From contig JALCKY010000009.1 in assembly GCA_022647575.1 (NCBI GenBank), positions 1-57,733 of the forward strand: a stretch of DNA of 57,733 nucleotides. The letters run 5' to 3'. Under the pieces are notes generated by a model. That model was not told the DNA's origin. It worked only from the letters and a program-made list of their open reading frames with translations, and ran no database searches. Each line of letters begins with the position of its first letter. The stretch's first letter is position 1. Source of the stretch: Lachnospiraceae bacterium. GTDB lineage: Bacteria; Bacillota; Clostridia; Lachnospirales; Lachnospiraceae. Below, piece by piece: positions 37,019-57,285 of this stretch. The translations under genes were made by a program, and so were the position numbers.

Positions 37019-37798
37019 CTACAGTCCGAAAAGACCGAGATACCAGCGGAGAAGATTATTTCCGAAAAGAACCGAAACTGCCATCCCCAGCGCAAGGAAC
37101 GGGCCGAACGGCATATGTGCCTTACCGCTCTCCTTCTTCCCGGCCATCAGGTAAATGCCCCAGCCTCCTCCCGTAATCAGGGAAATGAAGAAGGCGATGA
37201 GCGTCAGCTTCCATCCCAGCAGGAATCCGGCCGGTGCCATCAGTTTGATGTCCCCGCCTCCGAAGGCATCCGGGATGATCAGCGTAATGAGGAACAGCGG
37301 AGCACTGATGCAGAAGAAACCGATGACACGCTCCAGGATTGGCACCTGCGGTCCGGTCACCAGCGACAAAAGCGCTGCGATGATGACCGTGATCAGGAAG
37401 CGGTTCGGAATCTCCATCGTATCCGCATCCACGAAAGCGATGACCGTCAGGATAGCAAGGAAAATAAACACCGTAACGGCTGCAAAGGAAAGTTCGTAAA
37501 CCCAGAGGTCTCCTACCGCGCAGGCTGCCCCGAGAAGCTCAACGACCATGTAGCGGGGAGAGATCTTCGTCCCGCAATAGCGGCATTTCCCGCGCAGGAA
37601 AAGCCAGCTGAAGACCGGCACCAGGTCTTTCGGGTAAAGCCGGTGCCCGCAGGTCGGGCACATCGAGAACCCTTTCGCATAGGAAATATTCCGCGGTACA
37701 CGATAGATCACGACGTTCAGGAAAGAGAAAATGCACATCCCGAATACCGCGGCAATGAGGTAGATGCATAAGTCGATTGAAAAGATTCCGGTCATCAT
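37019..37798 (-). CDS. pilD: Prepilin peptidase (A24 family)
   Basis: A 259-residue polytopic membrane protein. The N-terminal cytoplasmic loop carries two CxxC pairs (CPTCGHRL and CRYCGTKIS), and the two catalytic aspartates lie in FVDADTMEIPNR and GGGDIKLMAP. It removes the leader peptides of prepilins and methylates the new N-terminus. It is the last gene of the type IV pilus operon. It is GC-rich like the housekeeping genes and unlike the pilus genes immediately upstream, so it may lie outside the exchanged segment. Confidence 0.95.
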   Translation of the reverse strand: MMTGIFSIDLCIYLIAAVFGMCIFSFLNVVIYRVPRNISYAKGFSMCPTCGHRLYPKDLVPVFSWLFLRGKCRYCGTKISPRYMVVELLGAACAVGDLWVYELSFAAVTVFIFLAILTVIAFVDADTMEIPNRFLITVIIAALLSLVTGPQVPILERVIGFFCISAPLFLITLIIPDAFGGGDIKLMAPAGFLLGWKLTLIAFFISLITGGGWGIYLMAGKKESGKAHMPFGPFLALGMAVSVLFGNNLLRWYLGLFGL

Positions 37799-37828
37799 GA
37801 AAGTATTATCCGCCTGTCAGAAATATTT

Positions 37829-40800: not shown

Positions 40801-42564
40801 ATTTCATTGAAAAGTCTTTGCTCGCCAATGAGCGATTGATATCGGAAATATCCGTTGTACTGCTGACATCTCCTGCTGCAATTTTCTGTATGCAGTAAAC
40901 ATTTTCTTTTACATAGTTATAATTATTATCCGCAACCACTGAATCAGAAAGATCTTCCCAGTTAATAGCAGAATCCAATTCAGATTCTTTTGCTATGTTC
41001 AAAAAAGACTTCAAAAAAGTCGTATTGATATCCTTTTGGCCTGCCAGAATTGCCAATTTGTGTATGTTTGAAAACTGCTTCGTATTATAATCAACAGTTT
41101 CTTTAAAAATACTTCCATCTACAACGCAGGGCCATCTCATGGAATCGTCTGCAATGGCTCCGCATAGGAACTTCAGTACTGAGAATGATATATCATTCGT
41201 AAATGCCTCTGACGTACTGTCGTAACTGCCTAACTGATTTTCATAAGTTACCAGATTTCCATTTTCCTTCAAGCCTATATTGTTTCCGCAGATATATACA
41301 AAATTGTATCCCGAGATGTCATCCAGCGTTTTAGCCTGCAATTCCTTCGGTGTCAAAGTATCGACCGATACTTTGAAAGAATCAGTCGCAGCAGTAACAC
41401 CGAATACTTTCTGTTCCAGCCAGCGGTTATTCTGCAGACCGCATGTATAATAAACGGAATTAATCTTTACGGTATAAGTTTTATCGGAAGCAGTTCCATG
41501 TTGAAACACATAATTATCTGCAGCTGTGCTGATTGGACTGCTATTGTATGAAAAATACTGTGCATCACAAGACAGAGTCACCGTTGCCGCAGGTGTCTCT
41601 CTGTCGGTGTTGGGGTATCTGTTGGTGTGGCTGTCGGTGTCGGAGTATCTGTTGGTGTCGGCGTTGCCGTCGGCGTCGGGGTATCTGTCGGTGTAGGCGT
41701 TGCCGTCGGCGTCGGAGTTGCCGTTGGTGTCGGCGCAGCAACTTCAGAAAATGATTTCACATAATAGGCTGCTGTTCCTTCCGGAACACTATCTGTCTTT
41801 GTCAGAATCTGATTTCCGGCTGCATCCTTTGTAATCGTGTAAGTTCCGTACTGAGTCTTCGCATTATCCTGACCTTCCTGAAACACCACCTGATATCCGC
41901 CATTTGTATCCTGCGAAAAAGATTCTGGATCCCCAGATGCTGAATCTGAAGGTATTACACCTCCGGAAGCAGTTGTCATTAAAGAATAAACAATCTTGTC
42001 CGTAAGACTGCTGTCTGCAGCAAGCAAAGAAAATGTCCCGTTATCTTGTATATCTTCAGTGACACCTGATGGGAATTGCAGTAAATGATATCCTGTATCG
42101 GTACTTTCAAGATAAGTTTTTTCCGCATAAGTATCCTTATTATAAAATAAAGGATAACTATCCTTTTGCGCTGAATCTTCCGTGCATATTGAATTTATCT
42201 CCAGCTGATTGATGATATTATTGAAAATCGTTTTTCTCTCTGTAATACCAATTGCTGTTCCGGAAGCGTATGAATCAGATATATATTGTTTCATCAAAGG
42301 TGTAATATAATTATATTCCTGCCCGTCAGCAAGATATCCAATTTCACCTAGACCTTCTTTTGGAACTACTTCCAGTATTTTATAAGTTTTAGATTCGGAA
42401 TTCTCGATTTTTGAAACAACAGTTTCCAACCCAGGAAGCATATTGCTTGCCGTAATACTGATTATTGAGGAACTTGTCAGGGCAATCGCAATAATAATTG
42501 CCAAGTAAGCGACAATTATCTTTGCAAATTTATGTCTACTAATATACCGTTTGTTTTTCATCAT
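37829..42564 (-). pseudogene. Giant DUF5057-like surface protein, frameshifted at a Thr-Pro repeat
   Basis: Two frames join into about 1580 residues. The N-terminus has a short basic segment and one membrane helix (FAKIIVAYLAIIIAIALTSS), followed by YKILEVVPKEGLGEIGYLA, typical of DUF5057 proteins. A TP-rich linker follows near residue 300, then a long extracellular part with paired sections that speak of events such as SFDLNKDDVRAFS and YDMLILGFADVYQD. The frame breaks at TCTCTCT near 41596; removing two bases gives PTPTETPAATVTLSC. It lies between a large minor pilin and pilD, so it is probably a pilus-associated or cell-surface component. Function is not known; the DUF5057 link is from memory of the N-terminal motif. 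Confidence 0.65.
41594..41740 (-). repeat. Thr-Pro coding repeat
   Basis: Six- to twelve-base units (variants of GGTGTC on the plus strand) encode (TP)n with interspersed Asp and Ala. The frameshift in the giant surface protein lies at its 3' edge. Confidence 0.85.
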
Positions 42565-42583
42565 AAATCCTTCCGTTTCACTG

Positions 42584-44761
42584 CTATGAATAATACCAAT
42601 TATCCCAATAAGTGTATGAATAATATTTTTTCCAATCCAAGGAAAGTACAAGTTTTCCGCTGCTTTTTTTGTAGGTGACAGAATAATCTGTTCCATCACA
42701 GGTTTTCGCCGAATAACTTATTCCACTATCTGGTATAGGAATATAATAATTGACTAACTTTGAATCATCTCCGTAAACATTGGCCAATCTATATTTCAAA
42801 GAAATTGTAGCGTAAGCGCCATTATACAATTGGATATTTGTACCAGTATCTATACCAATAATGACATCCTTATTACTGACAGAATTTGTCGGAGTTGTAT
42901 ATACTACTGTGTATTCATTGCTTCTGTAAGTGATTTGATAATTTTCTAAAGGTTTTGTCGCCACTACATATCCAAGAGCCTCAGACGTATCTGAAAATTC
43001 GATACCTTCTGATTTTAATACAATAACCCTGTCTGCAACTTTTTTTATTGTTCCGCCATATCCATTGGTTGATGTTATATAGCTTATATAATTTGAATTC
43101 TTATCAGTCTGAGTAAGTGTTACCTTGCTGATATCCTGCTTGATTGATGCACTTGAATTATCATACTCGTCATCTATATCTGTTACGGTAACATCTAGAT
43201 TAAAAGTTTCAGCCTGCGCCAACGGCAACTTTCCAGAATCTTTACTTACATTGACATAGGTTGTTTCTGTGTTCTCACCTGATAGTTCCAAATAATCTCT
43301 TGATAAATCAATTGACCATTCACAGCTGCATTTCCCATCTGCAGAAATAGTCGTCTCTGTTTGTCCTTCACGTGTCACATAAACCTGATAAGTTCCCGTT
43401 TCACCTCTCCACAAAGTATCGGTACCATGTGCAGCTGCATCAGTCCTTGCAATGCGAACAGCAACTATCTTCGGATTTGCCGCTGGGGTTGCTGGAACAG
43501 TAATAGAAACACTTGCTTCTTTGCTGTGGTCACCATCTGTGATATTTGCCGGATAATTCAATTTAATAGAACAATTAATAATCGAATTATCAGCTATTCC
43601 CGAGTAATTGATTGTAATTGGCCAGGAGATATAAGTTTTTGTTGACGTGTCCGCCGCTTCCACGGAAACAGCTGCACTGACAGCATTTCCAGCCGCATCC
43701 GTCAGTTTAAAGTTTGCAGGAACCACCTGCCCGTCAAATACAGTCTGATCAAGGAAGAATCCGGAAACGCTCAATGTCGCTTTTACGGTTCTTGCCTTCG
43801 CATCATAGGTTCCTTCTTTCAGGGCAAGACCTGCAGATTCCATGTAGCTTGCCGAAACCACGGAATTCGTGGAAACTTTCGTCGTATCAAATACGGAAGT
43901 TGCCGTTACAATCATATTCTGGCTTGTTTCATTTATACCCAAATGCAGGGTGCCGTCTGAATCAATCGTTGTGGTAGTATCTTTATTATCCTTTACCTGC
44001 CAGGTTACATCCGTTGCCGGATGATTGACCCCGGATACCGTTGCTTCAAACTTCTTGGATCCTCCCTGTACAACCTGTGCGGAAGACGGGGATACATTGA
44101 CTGCTGTTACCGTCGATACATAAGGAACAACCGGAACCGCAACATCTGCAAGATCACGGTTTACGGCAACATTATTACGCAGGGTAACTGTGTTTTCCGT
44201 CTTGTAGCTTCTGTCATTCAATGTAAAGGTAATCTGATATTTTACCTGATTGCTGCTGATAGTATTCGTTGTGCTGTTCGGATCATAAAGCTGCATTTTA
44301 AAATCCGTCACATATTGTGCCAGGATATTTGATTCCACCGTCGGCTCAGTTTTATCGGCTACATATTGATAAAAGGAATACTGAAGTTCTTTAGCTGCCC
44401 TGTCAAAGGTGATACAGTAAACAGTTACCTTAGAATTATCCGAACCACCATTGACGTCTTCATCCCAGTCATAAATATAAAGTTTCTTTGACTCAGCTGT
44501 GTCGTCCGTGTCGTTATAGACTTTAACATTGCTGCCAACGTAATAAGCAACTCCCGCAGATGCATCCACAAGCATATCGTGAAGTCTGTTGCTTGTCAGC
44601 TGTGCTTCATTTTGTATATTTGTTTCGGTATTGGAATTTTTGAACAGGTTCGTACTGACAAGAAGAAAAGAAATAATGGAGCCGAACACAATGACAGAGA
44701 TCGCAATCGCTACGATCAGCTCCACCAATGTCAGTCCTTTGTTTTTCTTCAGAAAATTCAT
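42584..44761 (-). CDS. PilW-like pseudopilin with Ig-like domains
   Basis: A 725-residue protein with a type III (prepilin) signal: MNFLKKNKG then LTLVELIVAIAISVIVFGSI, cleaved after Gly, with Glu5. The first ~210 residues resemble PilW/GspJ pseudopilins. After it, VTAVNVSPSSAQVVQGGSKKFEATVSG and similar segments look like bacterial Ig-like (Big2) domains. It is far longer than usual minor pilins and may carry adhesive domains at the pilus tip. It ends 20 bases before the DUF5057-like gene. Confidence 0.85.
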   Translation of the reverse strand: MNFLKKNKGLTLVELIVAIAISVIVFGSIISFLLVSTNLFKNSNTETNIQNEAQLTSNRLHDMLVDASAGVAYYVGSNVKVYNDTDDTAESKKLYIYDWDEDVNGGSDNSKVTVYCITFDRAAKELQYSFYQYVADKTEPTVESNILAQYVTDFKMQLYDPNSTTNTISSNQVKYQITFTLNDRSYKTENTVTLRNNVAVNRDLADVAVPVVPYVSTVTAVNVSPSSAQVVQGGSKKFEATVSGVNHPATDVTWQVKDNKDTTTTIDSDGTLHLGINETSQNMIVTATSVFDTTKVSTNSVVSASYMESAGLALKEGTYDAKARTVKATLSVSGFFLDQTVFDGQVVPANFKLTDAAGNAVSAAVSVEAADTSTKTYISWPITINYSGIADNSIINCSIKLNYPANITDGDHSKEASVSITVPATPAANPKIVAVRIARTDAAAHGTDTLWRGETGTYQVYVTREGQTETTISADGKCSCEWSIDLSRDYLELSGENTETTYVNVSKDSGKLPLAQAETFNLDVTVTDIDDEYDNSSASIKQDISKVTLTQTDKNSNYISYITSTNGYGGTIKKVADRVIVLKSEGIEFSDTSEALGYVVATKPLENYQITYRSNEYTVVYTTPTNSVSNKDVIIGIDTGTNIQLYNGAYATISLKYRLANVYGDDSKLVNYYIPIPDSGISYSAKTCDGTDYSVTYKKSSGKLVLSLDWKKYYSYTYWDNWYYS

Positions 44762-44782
44762 CTGTTTTCCCCTGTCAATTAC

Positions 44783-45295
44783 TTAATCATCAATATAAGT
44801 TTTTCCTGTTAAATGAACCAGCTCGACTGTTTTCTTACTGCTTCCCTGTTCAATAATAATGGAGGTGCAGTAAACAGCTGTCGATCCGCCGTTTGTATAA
44901 CTGATTGGCATAAATGCACCAGAACTCCGGTCGAATCCAAGTGTAAGCGATGAACCTGCTGAAATCTGGTGTACCTCCGTCGTACTCTGCGTATCCGTAT
45001 AACTGATTGATATTGACGAAGAAGCAGCTTCTTTCGTACCATCCTCTCCTGCCACGGATATCGAATATTTTCCGTCACTTCCGCAGGTCAGGATAAACTG
45101 TGCTGCATTGCTCTCTCTGGTCATGGCATAAACTTTTGTTTTCTTAAGTCCGTCATCAATGCTGATGGCCGCCTGACGCACATTCCATCCGGACAGTGAA
45201 AAGAAAGCCGAGACCGCCCCGACTGACAGAATGCCGATGATTGCAATCACGACAATCAGCTCGATTAACGAAAATCCCCTGACGTTTCTTTTCAT
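44783..45295 (-). CDS. FimT/GspH-like pseudopilin
   Basis: A 170-residue pseudopilin with MKRNVRG then FSLIELIVVIAIIGILSVGAV, cleaved after Gly with Glu5, and a GspH-like C-terminal beta domain (KKTKVYAMTRESNAAQFIL). It probably helps to start pilus assembly as part of a minor-pilin complex. It lies 18 bases after the PilX-like gene and 21 bases before the PilW-like gene. Confidence 0.9.
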   Translation of the reverse strand: MKRNVRGFSLIELIVVIAIIGILSVGAVSAFFSLSGWNVRQAAISIDDGLKKTKVYAMTRESNAAQFILTCGSDGKYSISVAGEDGTKEAASSSISISYTDTQSTTEVHQISAGSSLTLGFDRSSGAFMPISYTNGGSTAVYCTSIIIEQGSSKKTVELVHLTGKTYIDD

Positions 45296-45313
45296 TCTGT
45301 CATCTGGCTCCGT

Positions 45314-47623
45314 TTACTGTTTAACCCAGTTCTGATATACGATTAAATCTTCAATACTGGCAGAATCGACACTTCCTGCATTTCCGCTTGTCGCTCCACC
45401 GATAATATAACTGGAAGCATCATAAATATAATTCATGATCTTATTATTATTTGTTTCTGTCTCCAGGACCTTGGCTACTTCCTCCGGTGCTGACTGCAGG
45501 GATGAATTATTTTTCAGAGTAACTGTCCCATTGGAAATAATTAATCCGCTGAAATTGCTGTTTTCAACGACGACATTTCCTGTTGAAATGATGACCCTGA
45601 GATATGGTGATGCAGCAGTTCCTGAACCGGTATATACAGTCAGCACATCATCGGACAGGCTGTTGGTACCCGTGCCGTTTTTCACAACAACATTTTTCTC
45701 CGTAAGAATCCCGCTCAGGCTCGATTTCTCAGTCTGGAAAGTCATCGTCTGATTCGTGACATTATTCAGATCCGTCGTCAGCTTCGTCAGATCCACAAGA
45801 TTTTTAAAAACATTCTGCTTCTTTTCTGTTTCACTCAGAGCACTGTAATTCGAGACAAGTTTCAGGCGGTAAGCTGCAAATTTATTCTGGAGATTGACCT
45901 GTCTTTCAGTCAGTGCAGCCGTTGTGTTCGCAGCTCCGTCCGTCAGAGTATCCGACTGTTCTGTTACCGTATTGTTTGTCGTATCGACCTGAGAAAGAAT
46001 ATTTCCATTCAGGTCAAACTTTGCACTGCTTGCGGAATTCATTGTAACGCCCTGTAAATAGAATTTAACATACCGGTTAAGTTCCGTCTGATTGGCGCTG
46101 TCAGCATAATAGGTCTTAAAGTATTTCGCAGCTTCCAGTGCCGTATCGAATTTCAGATAAAAATATACCATATAGGAATTGTAAGCCTGGTAATAAGCCT
46201 TTTCATAAGAGGAAGCGCCGAGGCTCTTGACTGAATCCAAAGCAACCAGCTTATCGTCATTTTCCGTGGTAAGTCCCGCTTCTTTCCTGAGAGCTTCATA
46301 GGTATCAGCTGTCATAGGATTCTGTCCGCCGTTTGTATATTTCTGTCCGATCAGAGATGAGGGCACCAGATAAGCCAGCTGATTGCTCTTGACGGTCAGG
46401 GATTCACCCGTCATGACGTTGGCAGCATTTGTTATCGTTTCTGTGTTTTTCGCCTTCGTGCTGATGTAAGCATTTCCGCTCAGCATCAAGTATTCAATCC
46501 CCGAAAAATTCATCGTAACATTCGTACCGTTCACGACAATCGAACTGCTGTAATTGTTCGGGTTTGCCGTGATATCTGTTTTAATGGCTTCAACATCAGA
46601 AGAAGTGCCCAGTCGTTCTTCGGCAGCCCTGGCTGCTGTGACCGGGTTCCCATATCCGAAATAATTTCCGCTGACCGTAATGCTGCTGGCACTTCCGCTC
46701 TGATCTGTGACTGTCAGATCATCCTGAAGATAAGTTGATCCATTCAGATTCAATGCTGCTGAAACAATATTGACTCCGTCCGCCCAAAGATTTGTCTTGG
46801 AATCGGTAGAAAACGTTGTACCTGCAGCAAGATCAACCAGTTTATTGGTTACAGCTACATCTGCTTTTGAAACCGCAAGACTTCCTGCATTAAGTTTTAT
46901 TCCGTTTTCCCCGCCATATAAGGACCCGGCTATCGTGCTCGCCCCTGTATCATTAATCAGGGAATTCTCAGCAAGAACGGTGAAATCAAGAAGACTCGGT
47001 ACTGCCGACGTTTGGGTGAAATTCACAGAGGGATATTCCAGAATAATGTCTGTTCGAATCTGGGAAAGATTTCCCTTTTCATCTGTATAGCGGATTCTCA
47101 GATTCTTCAGGGCAAGTCCGTCTTTTACAGGAGTCAGATAATTCATTCCCTGACCTGTCTCGCCTGCAGTCTGAAAGACCGTCGTCACTTCGGCTCCGGA
47201 AACACTTGTGTCTGTCTTCAGAGGTGTCTTTGTAACATATCCTTTTAACAGATCCAGACTGTAATAAGACTGAGTGCCTGTTTCCTTCAGTGCAGCTCTT
47301 AATGTATCAATATATAAGTTTTCAAACTTTTCCTGGCGCTGAGTACGATCCATCGACGTATATCTTTCCATGACATTCGTATAAGCTTCCGTATAGGCTG
47401 TCGATACCTGATTCTGCAGCCCTGCCTTGATTTCGCTGACAACGCCTTCGCAGGAGTAGAATGAATTCTTGGCATTTGCGTCGATTGCCTTCATCTTGAT
47501 ATTCCACAGACTGGCCATCAGAACAAGAGTCACCAGAATCGTAGATATGGCAAATGTAACAAGCACGAAAACGAGGCTTGCTCCATGATTATTGATTCTG
47601 TTTTTAAGATATAATTTCTTCAT
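45314..47623 (-). CDS. PilX-like pilus assembly protein
   Basis: A 769-residue protein. The N-terminus (NNHGASLVFVLVTFAISTIL) is a PilX-type membrane helix without the Glu5 of true prepilins. The next part is helical, then a long extracellular region repeats beta-rich stretches such as LNAGSLAVSKADVAVTN and GNYFGYG. PilX proteins are minor pilins with one membrane helix. Its length is far above the family's ~200 residues, so it likely carries an added surface domain. It lies between PilV- and GspH-like genes. Confidence 0.75.
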   Translation of the reverse strand: MKKLYLKNRINNHGASLVFVLVTFAISTILVTLVLMASLWNIKMKAIDANAKNSFYSCEGVVSEIKAGLQNQVSTAYTEAYTNVMERYTSMDRTQRQEKFENLYIDTLRAALKETGTQSYYSLDLLKGYVTKTPLKTDTSVSGAEVTTVFQTAGETGQGMNYLTPVKDGLALKNLRIRYTDEKGNLSQIRTDIILEYPSVNFTQTSAVPSLLDFTVLAENSLINDTGASTIAGSLYGGENGIKLNAGSLAVSKADVAVTNKLVDLAAGTTFSTDSKTNLWADGVNIVSAALNLNGSTYLQDDLTVTDQSGSASSITVSGNYFGYGNPVTAARAAEERLGTSSDVEAIKTDITANPNNYSSSIVVNGTNVTMNFSGIEYLMLSGNAYISTKAKNTETITNAANVMTGESLTVKSNQLAYLVPSSLIGQKYTNGGQNPMTADTYEALRKEAGLTTENDDKLVALDSVKSLGASSYEKAYYQAYNSYMVYFYLKFDTALEAAKYFKTYYADSANQTELNRYVKFYLQGVTMNSASSAKFDLNGNILSQVDTTNNTVTEQSDTLTDGAANTTAALTERQVNLQNKFAAYRLKLVSNYSALSETEKKQNVFKNLVDLTKLTTDLNNVTNQTMTFQTEKSSLSGILTEKNVVVKNGTGTNSLSDDVLTVYTGSGTAASPYLRVIISTGNVVVENSNFSGLIISNGTVTLKNNSSLQSAPEEVAKVLETETNNNKIMNYIYDASSYIIGGATSGNAGSVDSASIEDLIVYQNWVKQ

Positions 47624-47632
47624 CCAGCTCCG

Positions 47633-48880
47633 TCAGGCATCCGCCGTACCTGTCATGGTATAAACAGACTCTTCACTGCCTTCTGTAAATACATCAATTG
47701 TTATCTGATAGAGTCTTGTCACCTTGCTTGCATCTTCCATCGTCGTTATTCCGAGGTATTTTTTATTTTTCTCTATCAGGCTCAGAGACTGGCTTCCTGA
47801 TTTAAACAGAATTGAATCAAACTGTTCAGTCTTCAGATCAGTCAGCATATTTGTCCCGATATTTGTCAGGATTGTCGTAAAAGCACGATAATCATCCGGA
47901 GGAGACCAGGCAACCGGCTGATCCGGATTGATTTCATCCACTTCAAGATTCACTTTATAGGTACTCTCAAAAACTTCCTGCGCATCTGTCGTCCGCTGCT
48001 TGACAAGATAAACCTTTGCGGAAATGGAAGAAGGTTTCGTCTCTGAAGAAGTCGTATTGTTAAAAACTTTTATGGTATCCTTTGCCGCCGCATTTTTAAT
48101 TGCATAAAGGGGAGTATAAAAGAGGTAGACCGAACGAAGTTTACCGTTCACGATATCGGAATTGTCGTAAACTGTACTTGAAACTGTTTTTGTCGTTGCC
48201 GCATTATTATCAAGTTTGTAGATACAATCTACCCGTACTTTCGTGATGCCGGTATCTTCGTCACCGGTATGCAGGATCGTAATGTCTATTTCTCTGCTGA
48301 GGGCATTAATAATCGCTGTTTCTGTCGTATAGGTATTGGTAATGTTCGGCATTGAAAAATATTCATCTACAATCTTCTGATCCGCATCCTCGCCGGACAC
48401 ATAAAAGGCATCCTGGAGGACATTCATATTATCAATGTTGGCAAGCGAAGCATCGTTATAGCCTGTCCCGCTTTCATTTGAGAATGCCGCAGGACTGAAA
48501 ACCGCTTTGAACCGGAAAGACCTGTTATTAATCACCTGCTGAGGTACCAAGACCCCTGCTGCAGTTTCTGATGAATTGTCAAGCGTATAAATTCCCTGCG
48601 CGTCCGGCGCCGCATAGGTATAGCCGCTTTCTGCTGTTCCAATTTTCAGACTGTCCAGGTAAGCCTTCACTCCTACTGCTTTTATGTTCTCCATCACATT
48701 CTGGGCTGCCGTTGTTGCTTCCAGCTTACGCTTGGCGCGGCTGTTGGCATTTGCAGAACTGATAAAAGCCGTGAGAACCGGCACAACAATAATCGCAAGA
48801 ATGGTAATTGAAACCAGAAGCTCTACCAAAGTAAAGCCTTTCTCTGATTTATTCAGTTTTCTATTCCTGCTTTGATTCAT
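47633..48880 (-). CDS. PilV-like pseudopilin
   Basis: A 415-residue pseudopilin with a longer leader (NQSRNRKLNKSEKG) followed by FTLVELLVSITILAIIVVPVLTAF, including Glu5. The next part (SRAKRKLEATTAAQNVMENIKAVG) resembles PilV/GspI minor pilins, and the rest is a beta-rich extracellular domain. It lies 9 bases before the PilX-like gene and 15 after pilO, in the minor-pilin block of the operon. Confidence 0.85.
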   Translation of the reverse strand: MNQSRNRKLNKSEKGFTLVELLVSITILAIIVVPVLTAFISSANANSRAKRKLEATTAAQNVMENIKAVGVKAYLDSLKIGTAESGYTYAAPDAQGIYTLDNSSETAAGVLVPQQVINNRSFRFKAVFSPAAFSNESGTGYNDASLANIDNMNVLQDAFYVSGEDADQKIVDEYFSMPNITNTYTTETAIINALSREIDITILHTGDEDTGITKVRVDCIYKLDNNAATTKTVSSTVYDNSDIVNGKLRSVYLFYTPLYAIKNAAAKDTIKVFNNTTSSETKPSSISAKVYLVKQRTTDAQEVFESTYKVNLEVDEINPDQPVAWSPPDDYRAFTTILTNIGTNMLTDLKTEQFDSILFKSGSQSLSLIEKNKKYLGITTMEDASKVTRLYQITIDVFTEGSEESVYTMTGTADA

Positions 48881-48895
48881 GATGTACCTTCAATC

Positions 48896-49813
48896 TTATG
48901 AAGCTGTTGATTCTGCTGTTGATTCTGCTGTTGATTCTGCTGCCGCTTCTTCCGCTGCAGAATCCGCCGCAGGCGTAACCGTCCCGAAAACATTGTCTGT
49001 TCCGACAGAAACATCGTTGATACTTGGCGGCACATATCCCTGAGTCGTTCCGGTCATATAGAACTTATCAATTACGATCGTTCCCATCAAATTTCCGGTT
49101 GTTGTGTCAAATGAAGCCGTTACATTGCTGATCGACTGTTTTGCCGTATCTGTCGGAATGGAATTCAGCATGCTTTTAAATCCTTCATAAGTCGATGTAA
49201 AGGTCATATTCAGCTGTGTCTTATAAAGGATTCCGGTATCTTCTGCCGAAGCACCGGTGCCGGTTGCATTCTGCAGCGCAGATGCCGCCTGTGATGCAGC
49301 GTCTCCTCCCAGTGTTCCGTTTACGGTTTCTCCGGTTCCTGTAGCTGCAGCAGAAATATCCGACTCCATGGTATCCGTTGACGTCGTTGTACTTGCAGAT
49401 GATGTCGTCGATGCTGCTGTCGTCCCGTCATTCTCACCCGGTGCACCATCTGCGAGAGAATAAACCATAATCGGATCGGTGATCCCAACACTGGAAACTG
49501 TTAGTCCGTTATCTGTCTCGAGTTTTCTTGCATACAGAATTTCATCTTCAGATTTTACATCGGCAGGAAACTCCTGAATCATCTGGCTGATTGCAGCTTT
49601 ATCCGATGCTGTCTTTGCCTCATAATCAGTCTGTTTTGCCTTCAAGGCAGAGGTACTGTTATATTGCATTTCCAGCTGCGTCAGAGTTTCCTGGGCACTT
49701 GCATTTTCTTCCATCTTCGGGGAAAAATACAGGAAATAAACGAGCGCCGCTGCAACAATGCCCGCTAAATAAAGGAGAATAATGATGTCTCTTCTTTTGA
49801 TTTTCAAGTCCAT
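48896..49813 (-). CDS. pilO: PilO-like inner-membrane platform protein
   Basis: A 305-residue protein with one N-terminal membrane helix (IIILLYLAGIVAAALVYFLYF), a coiled coil (ENASAQETLTQLEMQYN) and a ferredoxin-like domain ending FMTGTTQGYVPP. It pairs with PilN to form the alignment complex. A low-complexity Ser/Thr/Ala stretch in the middle and a C-terminal AEST tetrapeptide repeated three times (12-bp DNA repeats near 48900-48940) are not typical. It follows the PilM-PilN fusion by 11 bases. Confidence 0.85.
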   Translation of the reverse strand: MDLKIKRRDIIILLYLAGIVAAALVYFLYFSPKMEENASAQETLTQLEMQYNSTSALKAKQTDYEAKTASDKAAISQMIQEFPADVKSEDEILYARKLETDNGLTVSSVGITDPIMVYSLADGAPGENDGTTAASTTSSASTTTSTDTMESDISAAATGTGETVNGTLGGDAASQAASALQNATGTGASAEDTGILYKTQLNMTFTSTYEGFKSMLNSIPTDTAKQSISNVTASFDTTTGNLMGTIVIDKFYMTGTTQGYVPPSINDVSVGTDNVFGTVTPAADSAAEEAAAESTAESTAESTAS

Positions 49814-49824
49814 GAGTATCCTCC

Positions 49825-51531
49825 CTATGACCCTGACGATGTGCTTTGCACAGATTCAGTAGTTTGTCCTGACTGTGTGCCTGAATCTGCAGAAGAATCC
49901 GTTACCGGATAGGAACAGGTGACAGACATATTGACTGTAGGAGCAACGCCTTCTGCCGTATCTTCCGTGATTCCGCCGGTTGTGACATCCGTAATGCTGG
50001 TAAAGGACCTCAGCTGCTGCAGAACCAAGGCAGCGGATTCCTTACTAGTTACATTAACCGTCATGGCAATGCCTGTATCATCTGCACTGAAAGAAACAAT
50101 ATTGATATCCGAAGGCATCTTTTTTTCCAGTTCATCGATAAATGCCTTCAGCTGATTATTCTGATTCTCCGTATAAGCATACATCTTCTGATAATTCTGG
50201 ACCCTGGCCTCTGCAGCCGTATATTCATTATAGGCAGACTGTGCACTCTGCAGCTGTGTGATTTTGGTCTGCAGATCCAGATTTTCTGTCTGAATCATCG
50301 TGCTGGAAATCATTCCATACACAAGCATTGCAGCCGCGGCAGCAATACCCACACCGCATACAATCAAGGCAGGAACGAGGCTTAATTCTTTACCTCCGGC
50401 GGTCTTTCCGCCTTCCGCCTTTCCTGTCACGACAATATCATTGCCGAGTATATTCAGCGGAGACATCCCTGCTCCGATGCAGGCTGCATAAGCACTCATA
50501 CTCGTACCTTCATCGAGAAATGCTCCGGTATCTTTCATGGAATCAAGAGAAAGCATGGCTGTTACTTTCTGTCCAAGTTCATTTGTCAGGAGTTTTGTCA
50601 GACCGCTGAAATTGGCGCCCTGTCCTACTACGGCGATATGTTCCAGTACAGTTTCTTTATTCTGGGATTCATAATAAGCAAGTGCTCGTGAAATATTTGT
50701 TACCAAAGGTCGGAGCCCTTCCGTAGCACTGTCTCTGACTTTTAAATACTCTTCAGCATCATCATCCAAATTATGCTCAGTAGGATTCAGGTGCTGCCTA
50801 ATACAGGTCTTATGACGGACAATGTTCAGTGCGTCGTTATACGAACGCGTCGTTTCTGCTGAAGGGTCATTCATAATAGCTGCAAGCGCATCATCGATGC
50901 CGTAAGCAAGATTCCGCTGCATGTCAAACTTTCCGTCTTTAATTACGGTCAGCATGGAAGTCTGTTCATCTATTTTTAAAATTGCCGTACAGCCCTTCGG
51001 AAAGATTCCTTTAGCAACCTGGCATACACTGTTCCCTATATAATCCAATGCGATTAGATTCAAACCGCACATCTTTGCAAGTGCTTTATAAGAAGATACA
51101 AGTTCATTCGGAACAATAGTCACATTAATACGAAATTTCTTCTGTTTGTCTTCTCCGGAAATAACTTCCAGGATTTTCCAGGATGTCTTATACATGGAAA
51201 TATCCACCGGGAAGTAATCATCCATCCCGGCAGAAAGAATCTCGGCAATCTTCTTCTCTTTTACAAAGGGAATCATGACAACACGGCTGGCAATGGCATT
51301 GGATGCGATTGTAAAAATCACATTCTTTGTCGTGACATTTCTTTTTGAGCATTCGGCATTCAAAAGCCCGCGGAAAGTCTCAGACGGTTTTACCGTTCCG
51401 TCTTCAAACATATCTACCGGTGTTTCAAACTGAAAACATTGGTATACTTTGGGCTTTGATCCCTTGGCATCCATGACAACTACTTTTGTCAGGGAATATC
51501 CAACTTCAATAACTAGCAATTTACCAACCAT
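49825..51531 (-). CDS. pilMN: PilM-PilN fusion protein
   Basis: A 568-residue protein that combines two platform subunits. Residues 1-~370 have the actin-like PilM fold (VGKLLVIEVGYSLTKVVVM, IAVVGQGANFSGLTKLL, DEGTSMSAYAACIGAG). Then comes a membrane helix (LVPALIVCGVGIAAAAAMLV), a coiled coil and a PilN-like ferredoxin domain (INIVSFSADDTGIAMTVNVTSK). In most systems PilM and PilN are separate and interact through the PilN N-terminal tail, so fusion keeps them together. The start is ATG at 51531 with GAGGG upstream. Confidence 0.88.
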   Translation of the reverse strand: MVGKLLVIEVGYSLTKVVVMDAKGSKPKVYQCFQFETPVDMFEDGTVKPSETFRGLLNAECSKRNVTTKNVIFTIASNAIASRVVMIPFVKEKKIAEILSAGMDDYFPVDISMYKTSWKILEVISGEDKQKKFRINVTIVPNELVSSYKALAKMCGLNLIALDYIGNSVCQVAKGIFPKGCTAILKIDEQTSMLTVIKDGKFDMQRNLAYGIDDALAAIMNDPSAETTRSYNDALNIVRHKTCIRQHLNPTEHNLDDDAEEYLKVRDSATEGLRPLVTNISRALAYYESQNKETVLEHIAVVGQGANFSGLTKLLTNELGQKVTAMLSLDSMKDTGAFLDEGTSMSAYAACIGAGMSPLNILGNDIVVTGKAEGGKTAGGKELSLVPALIVCGVGIAAAAAMLVYGMISSTMIQTENLDLQTKITQLQSAQSAYNEYTAAEARVQNYQKMYAYTENQNNQLKAFIDELEKKMPSDINIVSFSADDTGIAMTVNVTSKESAALVLQQLRSFTSITDVTTGGITEDTAEGVAPTVNMSVTCSYPVTDSSADSGTQSGQTTESVQSTSSGS

Positions 51532-51620
51532 TTGCAAATCCCTCTTTTTCCAATTTACAAGTAATATCTTAGAAACTTATTCTTTTATTTTACGTTAATT
51601 ACAGTTACTTGAACACTTAT

Positions 51621-51791: not shown

Positions 51792-52278
51792 TTATAATAA
51801 ATATTTAGATTGTTTTAGAAGGTACTTTGTAGTCAATCCAGATCCATTTGAAGGCTTCATCGACGCTTTAACTGAACCATCAGATTTTGTTATCGTGATT
51901 GTCACTAAAGCTACCGGTTGTCCAGTATATGTACTTTTGAACTTATATCGCAGTATTCATGCAAGTGAAATGGTTTTTTGAACTGCTGTATCAAGTGCAT
52001 CCCATCCAATCTTAGTCTGTTTAGCTGCCGTAAAAGTAATTGTTGTATCTGCAAGTCCTGCATATACAGTTTCATCTGCCAAAGCAACTTGGATTGCATT
52101 CTGAACTTCAGAAACCATCTTTTCATCTTTAGATGCTCTTGACTTTTCAATGTACTGAATAAATTGCGGTGCAAGAATACCTACCAAGTATAGCCATAAT
52201 AGCAATAACGATGATAAGCTCTACCAGTGAAAATCCTTTGCTGTTTTTCTTTCTCCATTTCAGCATCTTGTTTAACAT
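51792..52278 (-). pseudogene. pilA: Major type IV pilin, frameshifted and with an internal stop
   Basis: The start at 52278 has AAGGAGA upstream. It encodes KWRKKNSKG then FSLVELIIVIAIMAIL with Glu5; an extra base near 52185 must be removed to read on as VGILAPQFIQYIEKSRASKDE. A TGA at 51957-51959 then interrupts VQKTISLA, but the same frame stays coding-like beyond it (KFKSTYTGQPVALVTI up to SKYLL) to a stop at 51792. The total of about 161 residues fits a normal clostridial pilin. No other major pilin gene is visible, so errors in the sequence are more likely than true loss. Confidence 0.75.
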
Positions 52279-52369
52279 AGTTTCTTTTCTCCTTTTTCTT
52301 TTTGCATAGTTTAATAACCTTTATTAAAACCCTCACGCCCTATTTCATGAGGAATTCTAACCTTTATAA

Positions 52370-53611
52370 TTAAACGTTACCAAGTCCTCCATACATAGCC
52401 GCCATTGTTTGTATGATAGCAATTACAATCGTACCAACAATCAGTGCCATCACAACAATAATCAATGGTTCCATAGCCGCCATGACAGCCTGTGTGGCAA
52501 GTTCCACTTCTTCATCATAGTAATCTGCTAAGCTTATCCAGCATAGATCTCAATGTTTCCCGTCTCTTCACCAATTTTAATCATATGATTAACCATTGGC
52601 GGAAAAATATTTGCAGTTAGGTCAGTGAAACCGACAAGCGGGATTCCTTTTGCCACATCATCTTCCGCATTCTTCAAGAGCTCTTTTAAAATGAATATTT
52701 GCTCATGTTTCGTCGAGGTAATATCCAAAGCCTCAATCATTGGAATTCCCTGCTGCAAGTAAGTGTACTCATCGTTCTCGCAAACTTTCGAACAGGCAGA
52801 TTTTGATTGTCAGATTTTCCGAAAATCGGAGCTTTCATTGCCAGTTTTCCAAAAACTTCCTGACCTTTGAATTGATTTGGCAAAGAGTCTTGATTCCAAC
52901 AATCTAATGCCACTACAGACGGCAATAAGGATATACCAACTTATTAACAATAAAATTACTGGTAGCAATTATTACCCTTCATCAGTCCCGGCAGTTCTGT
53001 TCCAATTTGGCTCAAACATGCTCGGTAGAACGTCGGCACCACAACGACCATTAGACACGATAATAACTGCTATTGCCACAACTCCGACCACGCACGGATA
53101 GATCATGGCCTTCTTCATCATTCCCGACAGCTTCGCATCTTTTTCAAACTGCGTTCCCATGCGGTCGAATGCGACATCGATGCTTCCGGAAGCCTCTCCT
53201 GCTTCCACCATGTTGTCCAGCATCGTCGGGAAGACGTCCTTCTGCGCTGCCATGGAACTCGACAGCGTCTCGCCTTTGCGGATGCCTTCGTTGGCATTCT
53301 TGATGGCCGTCGCAAGTCTCTTATTTTCCGTCTGCTCCTGCAGCATGTCCATGGCCTGGCCGATCGGGACGCCGGCGCCGATGATGCTGACGAACTGACG
53401 GCAGAAAACGGAAAGGTCACGCGGCTTGATCTTCTTCTTGAAGAGCGTGAAGGAAAGATCCTTGGTCATGGCATTCTGTTTCGTGATGCGCGTAACGATC
53501 ATTCCCTCTGACTTTGAGGGACTTCCGCACGAATTCTTCATTTTCTGCCTGAAGACTTCCTTTTTTCTCTTTGCCGTTCGGAAGGATGGCTACGTATGCG
53601 AAATTATCCAA
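52370..53611 (-). pseudogene. pilC: Pilus platform protein PilC, many frameshifts in its 3' half
   Basis: The N-terminal part is clear: VAILPNGKEKKGSLQAENEEF, then after an extra base near 53512 SEGMIVTRI and KPRDLSVFCRQFVSIIGAGVPI, and MVEAGEASGSIDVAFDRMG. After KKAMIYPCVVGVVAIAVIIV (about 53050) the frame moves repeatedly, yet PilC pieces continue to the end: MFEP..TELPGLMKG, QQGIPMIEALDIT, IFPPMVNHMIKIGEETG, DYYDEEVELATQAVMAAMEPLIIVV and AMYGGLGNV. The 3' half is AT-rich like the pilin genes, and the 5' half is GC-rich like pilT. It is a polytopic GspF-family protein that anchors the motor. Confidence 0.8.
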
Positions 53612-53720: not shown

Positions 53721-54833
53721 TTAATTGAGATCTCCCTGATTCAGTCTCTTCCTCAGGGCATTAGGGTCCAGCGCATAGCCGACGGCGTATTCTGCTGTGA
53801 TCCTGCCCTGCATGTAAAGATCGAGGAGGGCATCGTCCATGGTCTGCATCCCGAGAGCCTTGCTGGTCTGCATGACCGTCGGGATCTGGAAGGACTTGGC
53901 CTCACGGATGAGGTTTCTGACCGCACCGGTTGCCAGAAGAACTTCGATGGCGGCTGCTCTTCCCTTTCCGGACTCCAGCGGAATCAACTGCTGGGAAATG
54001 ACCGCTTCGAGCACCGACGACAGCTGAATCCGGATCTGCTGCTGCTGGGACGTCGGGAAGACGTCGATGACACGGTCGATCGTGCTTGCCGCATTGTTCG
54101 TATGCAGGGTTGAGAACACCAGGTGTCCGGTCTCGGCTGCCGTAATGGCGGTGGAAATCGTTTCCAGGTCTCGCATCTCTCCGACGAGGATGACATCCGG
54201 ATCCTGACGGAGGGCTGCACGGAGTGCGTGAGAATAGGACTGCGTATCGTGTCCGACTTCACGCTGGTTCACGATGGACATATCGTGACGGTGCAGGTAC
54301 TCGATCGGGTCTTCCAATGTGATGATGTGCTTGGCATACTTATGATTGATGATGTTGATGAGGCAGGCCAGCGTGGTCGATTTTCCGGAGCCGGTTGCTC
54401 CGGTGACCAGCACAAGTCCCCTCTTCTTGTCCGTCAGCTTGACGATGGATTCCGGAAGTCCGAGAAAGGCCGGATCCGGGACATCGAACGGGAGAATACG
54501 GATGGCCGCGGCCAGGGAACCTCTCTGACGGAAGATGTTGACACGGTAGCGTCCGACTCCGAAAATGGAATGCGCGAAATCGGATTCGCCGTACTCTTTC
54601 AGTTCTTCGATGATCTTCTCGTCCTGAAGAGGTCGAAGGATCGTTTCCGTATCGACAGCCGTCAGCTTGTAGTCATTGACGCAGGTAAGCTCGCCGTTGA
54701 TCCGGTAGGTAATGGCGCGGTTGGCCGTAATGTGGACGTCGGAAGCTTTTCTTTTCTGCGCTTCGGCAAGGATCTTGTCGATCGTATTGAACTCTTCCGG
54801 GATATTCGATTGTTCCTGTCCGTAGTTATCCAA
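53721..54833 (-). CDS. pilT: Pilus retraction ATPase PilT
   Basis: A 370-residue hexameric ATPase. It has Walker A GATGSGKST at residues 145-153, the Asp box and Walker B (ALRQDPDVILVGEMRD), and the His box (TGHLVFSTLHTNNA). PilT depolymerises pili for twitching or DNA uptake. The segment AAIRILP is typical of PilT. It lies directly after pilB and before pilC and has the GC-rich composition of the host. The frame is intact. Confidence 0.96.
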   Translation of the reverse strand: MDNYGQEQSNIPEEFNTIDKILAEAQKRKASDVHITANRAITYRINGELTCVNDYKLTAVDTETILRPLQDEKIIEELKEYGESDFAHSIFGVGRYRVNIFRQRGSLAAAIRILPFDVPDPAFLGLPESIVKLTDKKRGLVLVTGATGSGKSTTLACLINIINHKYAKHIITLEDPIEYLHRHDMSIVNQREVGHDTQSYSHALRAALRQDPDVILVGEMRDLETISTAITAAETGHLVFSTLHTNNAASTIDRVIDVFPTSQQQQIRIQLSSVLEAVISQQLIPLESGKGRAAAIEVLLATGAVRNLIREAKSFQIPTVMQTSKALGMQTMDDALLDLYMQGRITAEYAVGYALDPNALRKRLNQGDLN

Positions 54834-54930: not shown

Positions 54931-56622
54931 TCAGTTTTCAAATGAAACCCTGAGCATTTCCGTTATGGAAGTCGTCCCGTCCAGCACCAGTTCCGTCGCC
55001 GCCATCCGCAGGGTCTTCATGCCGTCCTTCAGCGCGGTCTCCCGGATCTGGTCGGTCGTTCCGTGTGCGGAAATGATTTCCTTCAGGTCGTGCGTGATCG
55101 GCATGATTTCGTAGACGCCGATCCGGCCGTAGTATCCTGTATCGTTGCAGAGCGAGCATCCGCAGGGTTCGTAGATTGTCAGGTCCTGGTCTTTCGGTAC
55201 GCACAGCAGCTCTTTTTCGTGTTCATCCGCCGGTCTCGGCTTCTTGCAGTGTTCGCAGAGTCTTCGTACAAGTCTCTGGGCAATGACTCCTGCCATGGCA
55301 TCCGCGAGAAGGTAGCTCTCGATTCCCATATCGATCAGTCGCGTGATCGTCGCCGCTGCGGAATTCGTATGGAGCGTGCTGACGACCAGATGGCCGGTGA
55401 TGGATGCCTGTACGGCAATCTGTGCGGTCTCTTCATCACGGATCTCGCCGATCATGATGATGTCCGGATCCTGCCGGAGGATGGAACGCAGGGCATTTGC
55501 AAAGGTCAGGTCTGCTTTTGTATTGACCTGCACCTGGTTGATGCCGTCGATGTTCGCCTCGACCGGGTCTTCAACCGTGATGATGTTGACGTCTTCTTTA
55601 TTTAACTCCGAAAGGGCCGTGTACAGTGTCGTGGACTTTCCGGAACCGGTCGGTCCTGTTGCCAGGATAATGCCGTTCGGATTCTGGAGGATCCGGTCGA
55701 ACTTTGCCAGCTCATCCGGCTTGAAGCCGAGTTCCTGCTTGCTCTTCGTCAGTGCCTTTTTCTGGGCAAGACGCATGACCACTTTTTCGCCGTAGACCGT
55801 CGGCAGGACCGAAACTCGGACATCGTATTCTTTCCGGTCGACCGCCATGGTCAGACGTCCGTCCTGCGGTTTCCTCTTCTCGGAAATGTCCATGCCGCTG
55901 ATGATCTTGATTCGTGCGACGATGGCCGGAAGCAGGTTCAGGTCGTAGGTGAACCGTTCGTACAGCGCACCGTCAATGCGGTAGCGGACACGGACTTTAT
56001 TTTCCCCGGCTTCCACGTGGATATCGGAAGCCCTCTGCCGGGCGGCCTGCTCGATCATGACCTTGACGAGCTGGACGATCGGGGAATTCAGGATTTCTTC
56101 GTTGACAGCTTCCGCTTCTTCGTCCTGTTTCTTTTCCAGCTCCGCCGTAAATTTCTCGGCGGCGACCAGGGCTTCTGCATTTCCGTAATACTTGTCGAGC
56201 GTCTGCAGGATCATGCCGGAGGTTGCGAGAACCGGTTCGACCTGCATATTCGTGATGATCGAAAAATCATCGATGGCCAGCTCGTCCATCGGGTCCGCCA
56301 TGGCCACCCGCATGGTGTTCGCCTTGCCTTCCGCGTATTCAAACGGAATCATCACGTGCTTCCGCAGGATCTGCGGGTTTACCAGGGCGACGATGTCGTC
56401 CGGAACTGCCACGAGCGTCAGGTTGATGGAAGGAATTTCCAGCTGCTGCGACAGGACGCGCATAATCTGCTCTTCTGTCACAAAACCCATCTCAGTCAGG
56501 ACTTCGCCCAGTTTCTTCTTTTCCGACTGTTGTACGGAAAGGGCTTTGTCCAGCTGATCCTGGGTAATGACTTTCTTCTGAAGAAGAAGTTCTCCCAGCC
56601 TGATTTTTCTCTTACCGATCAT
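54931..56622 (-). CDS. pilB: Pilus extension ATPase PilB
   Basis: A 563-residue GspE/PilB ATPase. The N-terminal MshEN-type domain begins RLGELLLQKKVITQDQLDKAL and includes EMGFVTEEQIMRVLSQQLEIP; MshEN domains of this kind can bind c-di-GMP. The core has ATGPTGSGKSTTLYT, the Asp box, and GHLVVSTLHTNSAA, and a zinc site of CEHC and CSLC. It powers pilus extension. The c-di-GMP link is of interest because the operon leader holds a c-di-GMP riboswitch, but binding residues were not checked in detail. Confidence 0.95.
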   Translation of the reverse strand: MIGKRKIRLGELLLQKKVITQDQLDKALSVQQSEKKKLGEVLTEMGFVTEEQIMRVLSQQLEIPSINLTLVAVPDDIVALVNPQILRKHVMIPFEYAEGKANTMRVAMADPMDELAIDDFSIITNMQVEPVLATSGMILQTLDKYYGNAEALVAAEKFTAELEKKQDEEAEAVNEEILNSPIVQLVKVMIEQAARQRASDIHVEAGENKVRVRYRIDGALYERFTYDLNLLPAIVARIKIISGMDISEKRKPQDGRLTMAVDRKEYDVRVSVLPTVYGEKVVMRLAQKKALTKSKQELGFKPDELAKFDRILQNPNGIILATGPTGSGKSTTLYTALSELNKEDVNIITVEDPVEANIDGINQVQVNTKADLTFANALRSILRQDPDIIMIGEIRDEETAQIAVQASITGHLVVSTLHTNSAAATITRLIDMGIESYLLADAMAGVIAQRLVRRLCEHCKKPRPADEHEKELLCVPKDQDLTIYEPCGCSLCNDTGYYGRIGVYEIMPITHDLKEIISAHGTTDQIRETALKDGMKTLRMAATELVLDGTTSITEMLRVSFEN

Positions 56623-56654: not shown

Positions 56655-56891
56655 CTACTGCTGTCCGCCTGCTGCCTGCAGATAAGCCTGCTCATCAGTC
56701 TTTAAGCGCCAGTTTACGTACTTTCCTGTGCGTACCCGTTTGTCCTTCGGTTTGGACGCCTCGGCAGGTATCGCCCAGACTCTCCCGAAACGCATGGCTC
56801 CGCGGATCCTGCCTTCACGGCAGAGCACCTGTACCCGCTTTTCGGAAATGCCCCATTCCTCGGCTTTCTGACTGATTGTCTTATATTCCAT
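56655..56891 (-). CDS. Small helix-turn-helix DNA-binding protein
   Basis: A 78-residue protein with the excisionase/MerR-type helix-turn-helix pattern: SQKAEEWGISEKRVQVLCREGRIRGAMRFGRVWAIP. Such proteins bind DNA and may regulate local genes. It is the first gene of the pilus operon, 32 bases before pilB and directly after the riboswitch terminator. The ribosome site GAGGGTGA lies 6 bases before the ATG. It could act on pilus gene expression, but no target is visible. The rest of the chain (about 30 residues) is polar and Gln-rich. Confidence 0.75.
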   Translation of the reverse strand: MEYKTISQKAEEWGISEKRVQVLCREGRIRGAMRFGRVWAIPAEASKPKDKRVRTGKYVNWRLKTDEQAYLQAAGGQQ

Positions 56892-56908
56892 GAAATCACC
56901 CTCAGAAT

Positions 56909-56934
56909 AAAAAAACGCTGCCGGATCCGGCAGC
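56909..56934 (-). terminator. Intrinsic terminator in the pilus operon leader
   Basis: On the minus strand GCTGCCG-GATC-CGGCAGC is a perfect stem with a 4-base loop, followed by G and seven U. It lies between the aptamer and the helix-turn-helix gene, so transcription must pass it to reach pilB. It is the probable expression platform of the riboswitch. Confidence 0.85.
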
Positions 56935-56945
56935 TTCGTTAACAG

Positions 56946-57012
56946 TGCAACTGGCTGTCTAAATTGATAGACCCTAAAGCTTTGCGACGCCGGATCACTC
57001 CGGTTGTGCTGA
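56946..57012 (-). ncRNA. c-di-GMP-I (GEMM) riboswitch, probable
   Basis: On the minus strand the leader has the GEMM order: AGCACAACC, a hairpin CCGGA-GUGA-UCCGG with a GNRA loop, then GUCGCAAAGC, AGGGUCU, a second hairpin (GUCUA paired with UAGAC) and AGCCAGUUGC closing the first strand. The usual base before CGCAAAGC is A; here it is U. GEMM-I riboswitches bind c-di-GMP and control motility, pilus and surface genes. A sigmaA promoter is 46 bases upstream and a terminator 12 bases downstream. Identification is by motif; folding was done by eye. Confidence 0.8.
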
Positions 57013-57057
57013 TATTAAATTAAATACTTATTTGACTTTGTTCGTTTCTATGAATTA

Positions 57058-57086
57058 ATTTTAATTCCTCTTCTGAACAATGTCAA
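57058..57086 (-). promoter_or_regulatory. sigmaA promoter of the type IV pilus operon
   Basis: On the minus strand TTGACA (57081-57086) and TAAAAT (57058-57063) are 17 bases apart. The leader begins near 57051 and holds the riboswitch. Confidence 0.8.
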
Positions 57087-57130
57087 TTCAAATTTTATAC
57101 AATATTACGCATGAAATCCTGTGAAATATG

Positions 57131-57170
57131 CAAAAAGCCTTTTACCGGAATTGCTTCCGATAAAAGGCTT
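57131..57170 (-). terminator. Terminator after tRNA-Glu
   Basis: AAGCCTTTTA and TAAAAGGCTT (57135-57144 and 57161-57170) form a 10-bp stem around a loop that can also fold (CCGGAA/TTCCGA), followed by U on the minus strand. It ends the tRNA transcript before the pilus promoter. Confidence 0.85.
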
Positions 57171-57175
57171 CCTGA

Positions 57176-57247
57176 TAGCCGATGGGGGAATCGAACCCCC
57201 GATTCCGCCGTGAGAGGGCGGCGTCTTAACCGCTTGACCAACCGGCC
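57176..57247 (-). tRNA. tRNA-Glu (anticodon CUC)
   Basis: A 72-base cloverleaf on the minus strand starts GGCCGGT and ends ATCGGCTA; CCA is not encoded. The D-arm region is TGGTCAAGCGGTTAAGAC, the anticodon stem-loop is CCGCC-CTCTCAC-GGCGG with anticodon CTC, and the T-arm is GGGGGTTCGATTCCCCC. The acceptor has one G-U pair at position 1-72. It has its own promoter and terminator. Confidence 0.96.
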
Positions 57248-57256
57248 GTACCTAGT

Positions 57257-57285
57257 AATATACTATAGCTGCCGGAAATATGCAA
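57257..57285 (-). promoter_or_regulatory. Promoter of tRNA-Glu
   Basis: On the minus strand TTGCAT (57280-57285) and TATATT (57257-57262) are 17 bases apart, 10 bases before the tRNA. Confidence 0.65.

Follow-up and report, generated by a model that had tools for sequence, protein, structure and literature searches.

We identified a c-di-GMP-I (GEMM-I) aptamer at the head of a type IV pilus cluster in the genome of a Lachnospiraceae bacterium. The analysed stretch of 57,733 nt, here referred to as the window, is one entire contig of the 3.03-Mb, 11-contig genome. A preliminary description of this DNA had placed a promoter, a GEMM-I-like aptamer and a terminator in order before an HTH gene and pilB, and these elements were found as claimed: on the minus strand, the leader runs from the promoter through the GEMM-I aptamer and the intrinsic terminator to a small HTH-like gene, and then to pilB-pilT-pilC-pilin onward. 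A sensor of a c-di-GMP-binding RNA family heads this cluster, and pilus production is probably set by c-di-GMP. As a tentative account of the whole chain, the c-di-GMP-bound class I aptamer would let the terminator stop transcription before the HTH gene and pilB. The computation gave the aptamer family, the promoter match, the terminator, the gene order and the compatibility of terminator and aptamer, and the features were as follows:

57058..57086, minus strand: promoter-like site, -35 TTGACA and -10 TAAAAT with a 17-nt spacer (consensus match only)
56943..57020, minus strand: c-di-GMP-I (GEMM-I) aptamer (RF01051, 43.0 bits)
56990..57003, minus strand: aptamer P2 hairpin with a GUGA (GNRA) loop (Rfam alignment, genus alignment and nascent-RNA folds)
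56924..56996, minus strand: possible antiterminator, 56996-56989 with 56924-56931 and, at lower certainty, 56981-56976 with 56932-56937 (nascent-RNA folds)
56909..56934, minus strand: intrinsic terminator, a 7-bp stem (6 G-C) with a loop of 4, then G and seven T (terminator scan and folds)
56655..56891, minus strand: 78-aa HTH_17-like protein, first gene 3′ of the leader (PF12728, 23.1 bits, Pfam cut-off of 27 not reached)
54931..56622, minus strand: pilB, assembly ATPase with an N-terminal MshEN domain of the c-di-GMP-receptor type (PF00437, T2SSE, E 2.8e-138; PF05157, E 4.6e-15)
53721..54833, minus strand: pilT, retraction-ATPase-like (PF00437, E 2.3e-50)
52370..53589, minus strand: pilC, split over frames in the assembly (PF00482, E 2.8e-28 for the first piece)
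51957..52320, minus strand: major-pilin-like gene, frame broken in the assembly (pilin-type N-terminus, by eye)
37019..51537, minus strand: pilM-like gene, T2SSM-like gene (below cut-off), three N_methyl pilin-like proteins, DUF5057 protein and prepilin peptidase (37798-37019)

The Rfam GEMM-I covariance model, which the preliminary description had proposed as a check of its aptamer, matched 57020-56943 of the minus strand above its gathering cut-off of 35 bits (cmscan of both strands of the whole window, 4227 families, E 3.9e-5), and the same aptamer scored 43 bits again when its own genome was searched with RF01051. The GNRA tetraloop on P2, the P3 helix and the invariant CGCAAA core (GUCGCAAAG) were all present. 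GEMM-I was detected in 8 of 42 genomes of the window's genus, in 18 copies, 17 of which were aligned (L125 was omitted, being identical to L130). Across the aligned copies, 11 of the 15 predicted aptamer pairs showed compensatory changes, and the P2 tetraloop, GUGA in the window copy, was GAAA in the other 16. We regard it as nearly certain that the aptamer region is a riboswitch.

The promoter-like site, with 11 of 12 consensus matches, was the top match among the 55 such sites found by a consensus scan of 37700-57300, where shuffles gave a mean of 37.8 (sd 6.4). The terminator (GCTGCCGGATCCGGCAGC, then G and 7 T) has its stem at 56934-56917 and its T run at 56915-56909 of the minus strand. 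It starts 8 nt 3′ of the aptamer end with zero bases in common, and this separation of terminator from aptamer is solid. Terminator-like sites in 37700-57300 numbered 19, near the shuffle mean of 15.5, and the leader terminator had more G-C pairs than the others. Inside the cluster, the scan gave nine more terminator-like matches on the minus strand and many promoter-like sites, in counts near or somewhat above those of shuffles.

A GAGGG ribosome site precedes the ATG of the HTH_17-like gene (by eye). Across the fetched pilB loci, this gene found weak matches only and no convincing homologue, the best being 37% identical over 43 aa (L107, E 0.005) and located inside pilB. The MshEN domain of PilB, compared by eye with the motif given in the available part of PMC5013675, has two 24-residue motifs with 5 residues between them (24+5+24). 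Motif I keeps R, L, G, L, L and Q, and motif II has K, L, G, I, L and Q, with the first turn Gly changed to Lys. According to the same source, MshEN domains also bind cGAMP, more weakly.

Besides pilC and the pilin gene (51957-53589), the frames of parE (35042-36931) are broken too. This speaks for indel errors made in assembly and against a decaying operon, and we consider the broken frames in all three genes to be probably such errors. Given this likelihood, single bases of the leader could also be affected. Close to the pilus cluster end, the DUF5057 protein (37829-41581 minus) is 1250 aa long. An inverted repeat with perfectly matching 19-nt arms (51677-51659 / 51639-51621) and no T run separates the pilin gene from pilM (by eye), and it may be a terminator-like or RNA-stability element. 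The part of the pilus cluster at 37001-53000 has 37–46% G+C, and the rest of the contig has mostly 49–59%, with 44% at 19-21 kb.

A contaminant contig was ruled out. The best matches of the contig's PNPase were 81–91% identical in congeners, with one fragment at 74%, and thus the contig belongs to the host genome. The nearest named relatives of the window PilB are mostly from Lachnospiraceae, at up to 67% identity. Its identity was 58–65% to three genomes belonging to other genera within the family and, over long stretches, did not exceed 47% to congeners, a patchy pattern which suggests transfer or loss. A second host PilB, on contig C1, was 41% identical to the window PilB, and no class-I switch was found in the 18 kb of sequence surrounding it (L136). 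The host genome has 5 GEMM-I matches above cut-off, the window copy scoring lowest. The others precede an ECF-sigma-like gene and two HTH/WYL-type regulators (L001, L003 and L004) and a large surface protein (ORFs by eye); as some copies lie before regulators, the signal may reach further regulators.

We infer the ligand, its binding, the OFF direction and the extent of the transcript as follows. RNA polymerase would start near 57050, as the promoter match implies, and the aptamer would be made first. With ligand bound, most likely c-di-GMP, P2 and P3 would be held and the downstream terminator hairpin would be free to form, at which point transcription would end before the HTH gene and pilB. 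With no ligand, the terminator 5′ arm would pair briefly with the P2 3′ strand, and perhaps with the start of P3, and this antiterminator would give readthrough into HTH-pilB-pilT-pilC-pilin. c-di-GMP may also act on the product, via the MshEN domain of PilB.

In folds of the nascent RNA, transcripts ending at 56924-56920 had the terminator 5′ arm paired with the P2 3′ strand with a probability of 0.93–0.99, and the probability of P2 itself was 0.00–0.06, the RNA that stops just short of the terminator 3′ arm giving 0.06. The first part of the antiterminator reached pair probabilities of 0.78–0.91 and the second part, at the start of P3, 0.35–0.46; from 56917 onward the terminator prevailed. 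Since terminator and aptamer occupy different stretches and the possible antiterminator would break the aptamer, OFF with ligand is predicted. This reading is also supported by the published logic of C. difficile Cd1, in which aptamer and terminator coexist, and by the class I switches of C. difficile, of which the seven functional ones are all OFF (PMC6366702 and PMC11477304). On balance, we lean towards the OFF direction. The terminator probability was 0.998 in the free RNA and 0.999 when P2 was enforced and the C that pairs with the ligand was kept free; as the terminator wins at equilibrium with or without ligand, the switch must be kinetic.

The predicted antiterminator is a lead, modestly above chance. 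Its 14-nt stretch was picked after the fold was seen, and duplex energies as good were reached by 26 of the 5000 permutations, by 22 of the 6000 14-mers taken from the window and by 6 of the 858 that were matched for GC; for the shorter arm, 66 of 2000 permutations were as good. When 1000 shuffled 14-mers were tried, 39 broke P2 to the same degree, as did 69 of 1000 real 14-mers matched for GC. Of the genus's 17 further GEMM-I loci, five (L004, L125, L127, L129 and L134) gave no terminator with a crude finder, L004 having a mismatched terminator by eye, L125 stopping at the contig edge and L127 running into N. By simple duplex energy, none of the 12 scored loci had a comparable antiterminator, the closest to the window (rank 66 of 2000 permutations) being L001 (247) and L122 (322), which argues against a single shared platform in the genus.

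Our best explanation, with its OFF reading, is weakened by these modest nulls, by the termination at equilibrium without ligand, by the lack of a switch upstream of pilB in all searched pilB relatives but one (G049, below) and by the class I switch Bc2 of B. thuringiensis, which is ON (PMC6366702). The same riboswitch might instead be ON, the ligand favouring readthrough into the pilus genes. The published switches at C. difficile pilA1 (class II) and Geobacter pilM are ON, and the GEMM-I found before pilB in another genome (G049) is predicted to be ON, its terminator falling from 0.89 to 0.0 once the ligand C is reserved. However, the window terminator lies past the aptamer with no common base, and holding the aptamer leaves its formation undiminished, so that we consider the ON direction unlikely.

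About as unlikely, in our view, is a degenerate or ligand-insensitive leader, in which an old aptamer would stand before a constitutive attenuator. The A in place of G20, the GUGA tetraloop and the lowest score of the genome's 5 copies, which also weaken our best explanation, agree with such a leader, as do the equilibrium termination and the broken pilC and pilin gene, and in C. difficile the non-functional copies are described as less well conserved (PMC6366702, in part). On the other hand, the invariant core is kept, the aptamer exceeds the cut-off, and the parE frames are broken as well, pointing to assembly errors.

The ligand-pocket bases G11/A38/C81 of Bc1 correspond to G20/A47/C92 of Vc2 in the available text of PMC11218506, and the window aptamer has A 57010, A 56983 and C 56947 at these positions (placed by eye on alignments), so only G20 differs. 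A at position 20 is the GEMM-Ib hallmark, and A20G is reported to convert a Geobacter GEMM-Ib from cGAMP to c-di-GMP (PMC6456294, in part). Position 20 was A in 8 and G in 9 of the 17 aligned genus copies, and the A20 copies likewise exceeded the RF01051 cut-off. Hypr GGDEF enzymes (cGAMP cyclases) are marked by Ser at the Asp position of GHxxGD. None of the 17 GGDEF hits of the host genome, several of which were degenerate and one of which had a broken frame, showed Ser at this position by eye (15 Asp, 1 Asn and 1 Gln), a reading which concerns GGDEF-type enzymes only.

Within the clan, the sister family c-di-GMP-I-UAU (RF03168) was the best-ranked match for the window aptamer, with 42.5 bits and its cut-off of 65.9 far from reached, when small amounts of sequence were run under permissive filters. 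c-di-GMP-II (RF01786) gave no match in the window at gathering score and none in the host genome, where the control of the same search gave none either and absence is unproven. Because no Hypr-like GGDEF was seen, PilB carries MshEN, and A20 occurs in almost half of the genus copies, c-di-GMP is the likeliest ligand, and we consider it the probable physiological ligand of the predicted riboswitch. Sensing of 3′,3′-cGAMP as a GEMM-Ib, or promiscuity, is improbable: the A at the G20 position with A47 and C92 kept, the A20G shift and the cGAMP-binding pilM precedent (PMC9262584, in part) favour it, whereas the GGDEF residues, the frequency of A in the genus, the absence of a large effect of Cd1 G11A (PMC9262584, in part) and the occurrence of both G and A in copies from the pilT-pilC gap of one genus (below) all count against it.

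We searched for class I switches at pilus loci of other genomes. GEMM-I was present somewhere in at least 26 of 50 genomes with named pilB relatives, 25 of them above cut-off under strict filters (the genomes are those of 50 of the 80 named pilB loci). At the pilB loci themselves, cmscan detected GEMM in 0 of 33 (26 from GEMM-I-bearing genomes, L010 and 6 others), and no switch was found upstream of the 8 close pilB genes (55–65% identity). With the custom covariance model R1, searched up to E of 1 in 100 pilB loci (80 from named relatives and 20 more), one match was obtained, in L098 from G049, the only genome among the searched pilB relatives with a switch upstream of pilB. This GEMM-I (L098 3467-3385 minus) is some 230 nt away from the pilB match, on its upstream side, scores 70.1 bits with Rfam and has G20. 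The cluster is pilB-pilT-pilC-pilin-pilM, with MshEN in its PilB (genes beyond pilB by eye), and the terminator 5′ arm is built partly from the aptamer 3′ strand and takes the ligand-pairing C. We predict that G049 has an ON-type architecture, which would make its switch a natural counterpart, of opposite sign, to the one in the window. At the end of its cluster there is a 1353-aa ORF, for which kinship to the DUF5057 protein is not implied.

In an order-wide survey of 146 genomes, GEMM-I was found in 62 and PilB (E ≤ 1e-90) in 83. Among the GEMM matches listed, with part of the candidates scored, a same-strand GEMM-I within 2 kb of pilB was seen in at least 3 genomes besides the window (G049, G189 and G230; coordinates by eye). 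In G189 (L157 6349-6271 minus; gene names by Pfam) and G230 (L158 5980-5904 minus), both of one genus, a class-I-family aptamer lies between pilT and pilC and matches the sister family c-di-GMP-I-GGC best, above its cut-off. The two differ at the selectivity base, which is G in G189 and A in G230.

The congener G022 (L135) carries two GEMM-I inside one Tad pilus operon, where six Tad genes were named by Pfam and the rest by eye. The first, at 12164-12084 minus, is at the operon head, ahead of the prepilin peptidase gene and of the series tadV-tadE-cpaB-cpaE-cpaF-tadB-tadC, and the second, at 5186-5105 minus, precedes the Flp pilin gene. They scored 51.6 and 67.7 bits with RF01051, respectively, and each has A at the G20 equivalent; under permissive filters, c-di-GMP-I-GGC was their first match by E-value, without its cut-off being reached. 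The terminator of the Flp leader rose from 0.005 in the free to 0.47 in the ligand state, so this leader is predicted to be OFF-type, and that of the operon-head leader was 0.91 free and 0.98 in the ligand state. These loci suggest that class-I-family switches were placed repeatedly at pilus operons, with differing predicted sign.

More speculatively, the class-I switch in the window may shut type IV pilus transcription while the same signal activates PilB through its MshEN domain; such two-level control would be incoherent, and its sign would be opposite to that of pilA1. In the same proposal, class-I-family switches would have been placed several separate times in the order, with the sign changing by platform swap (OFF-type at a pilB head, ON-type at a pilB head, in the pilT-pilC gap and in a Tad operon; no tree was made). 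Little work has been done on the type IV pili of gut monoderms, and the riboswitch best known for controlling such pili is that of C. difficile, which is of class II and ON. With a class I switch heading pilB and natural counterparts of both predicted signs in the order, it can be tested whether c-di-GMP always promotes pili, and the A-for-G pocket base offers a natural test of how strongly this position determines the choice between c-di-GMP and cGAMP. In open-access full text, none of the matches listed described, as judged from titles and abstracts, a class-I switch at a monoderm type IV or Tad pilus operon, most subscription papers lying outside this search.

As to known systems, the closest in order and genus are those described above. 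Like G049, the window has a class I aptamer heading a pilB-pilT-pilC-pilin-pilM cluster with an MshEN PilB, whereas G049 has G20, a higher score, an ON-type platform and no ORF of at least 60 aa between switch and pilB. With G022, it shares the genus and class I aptamers with A20 before pilus genes, but in G022 the operon is of the Tad (type IVc) kind, with switches at the operon head and before the Flp pilin gene.

The aptamer of Geobacter pilM has A at position 20, as in the window. In this system, from G. metallireducens, a switch of the GEMM-I type precedes type IV pilus genes in an operon; the switch binds cGAMP and is ON (PMC9262584, in part), and most Geobacter are reported to have GEMM-Ib upstream of pilus assembly genes, the GEMM-Ib Gmet_0970 having A at position 20 (PMC6456294, in part). 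Both pilM and the window combine a GEMM-I-type aptamer with an intrinsic terminator, and in both a polycistronic type IV pilus operon follows. They differ in that the pilM terminator makes use of one strand of the aptamer, whereas that of the window stands apart from it and no Hypr-like GGDEF turned up in its host. The preliminary description had presented a class I switch in this place as a separate solution; the class assignment stands, but the solution is less novel than supposed, given the published pilM switch and the four other genomes of the order.

C. difficile Cdi-2-4 (pilA1) is likewise a c-di-GMP-family riboswitch with a terminator before type IV pilus genes in a monoderm (PMC6366702, in part), but its aptamer class is unrelated and it is ON. 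The contrast drawn earlier with pilA1 as a class II switch was correct, as far as the available text of PMC6366702 and PMC11477304 goes. The logic predicted for the window matches that of C. difficile Cd1 of the flgB operon, also class I with the terminator apart, in which an antiterminator excludes the aptamer and the switch is OFF (PMC9262584 and PMC6366702, in part). According to the available text of PMC9262584, terminator and aptamer are mutually exclusive in pilM, giving ON, while in Cd1 both coexist and the antiterminator excludes the aptamer, giving OFF. Cd1 controls flagella, has G at position 11 and places its antiterminator on the ligand-binding C87, whereas the predicted antiterminator of the window targets P2.
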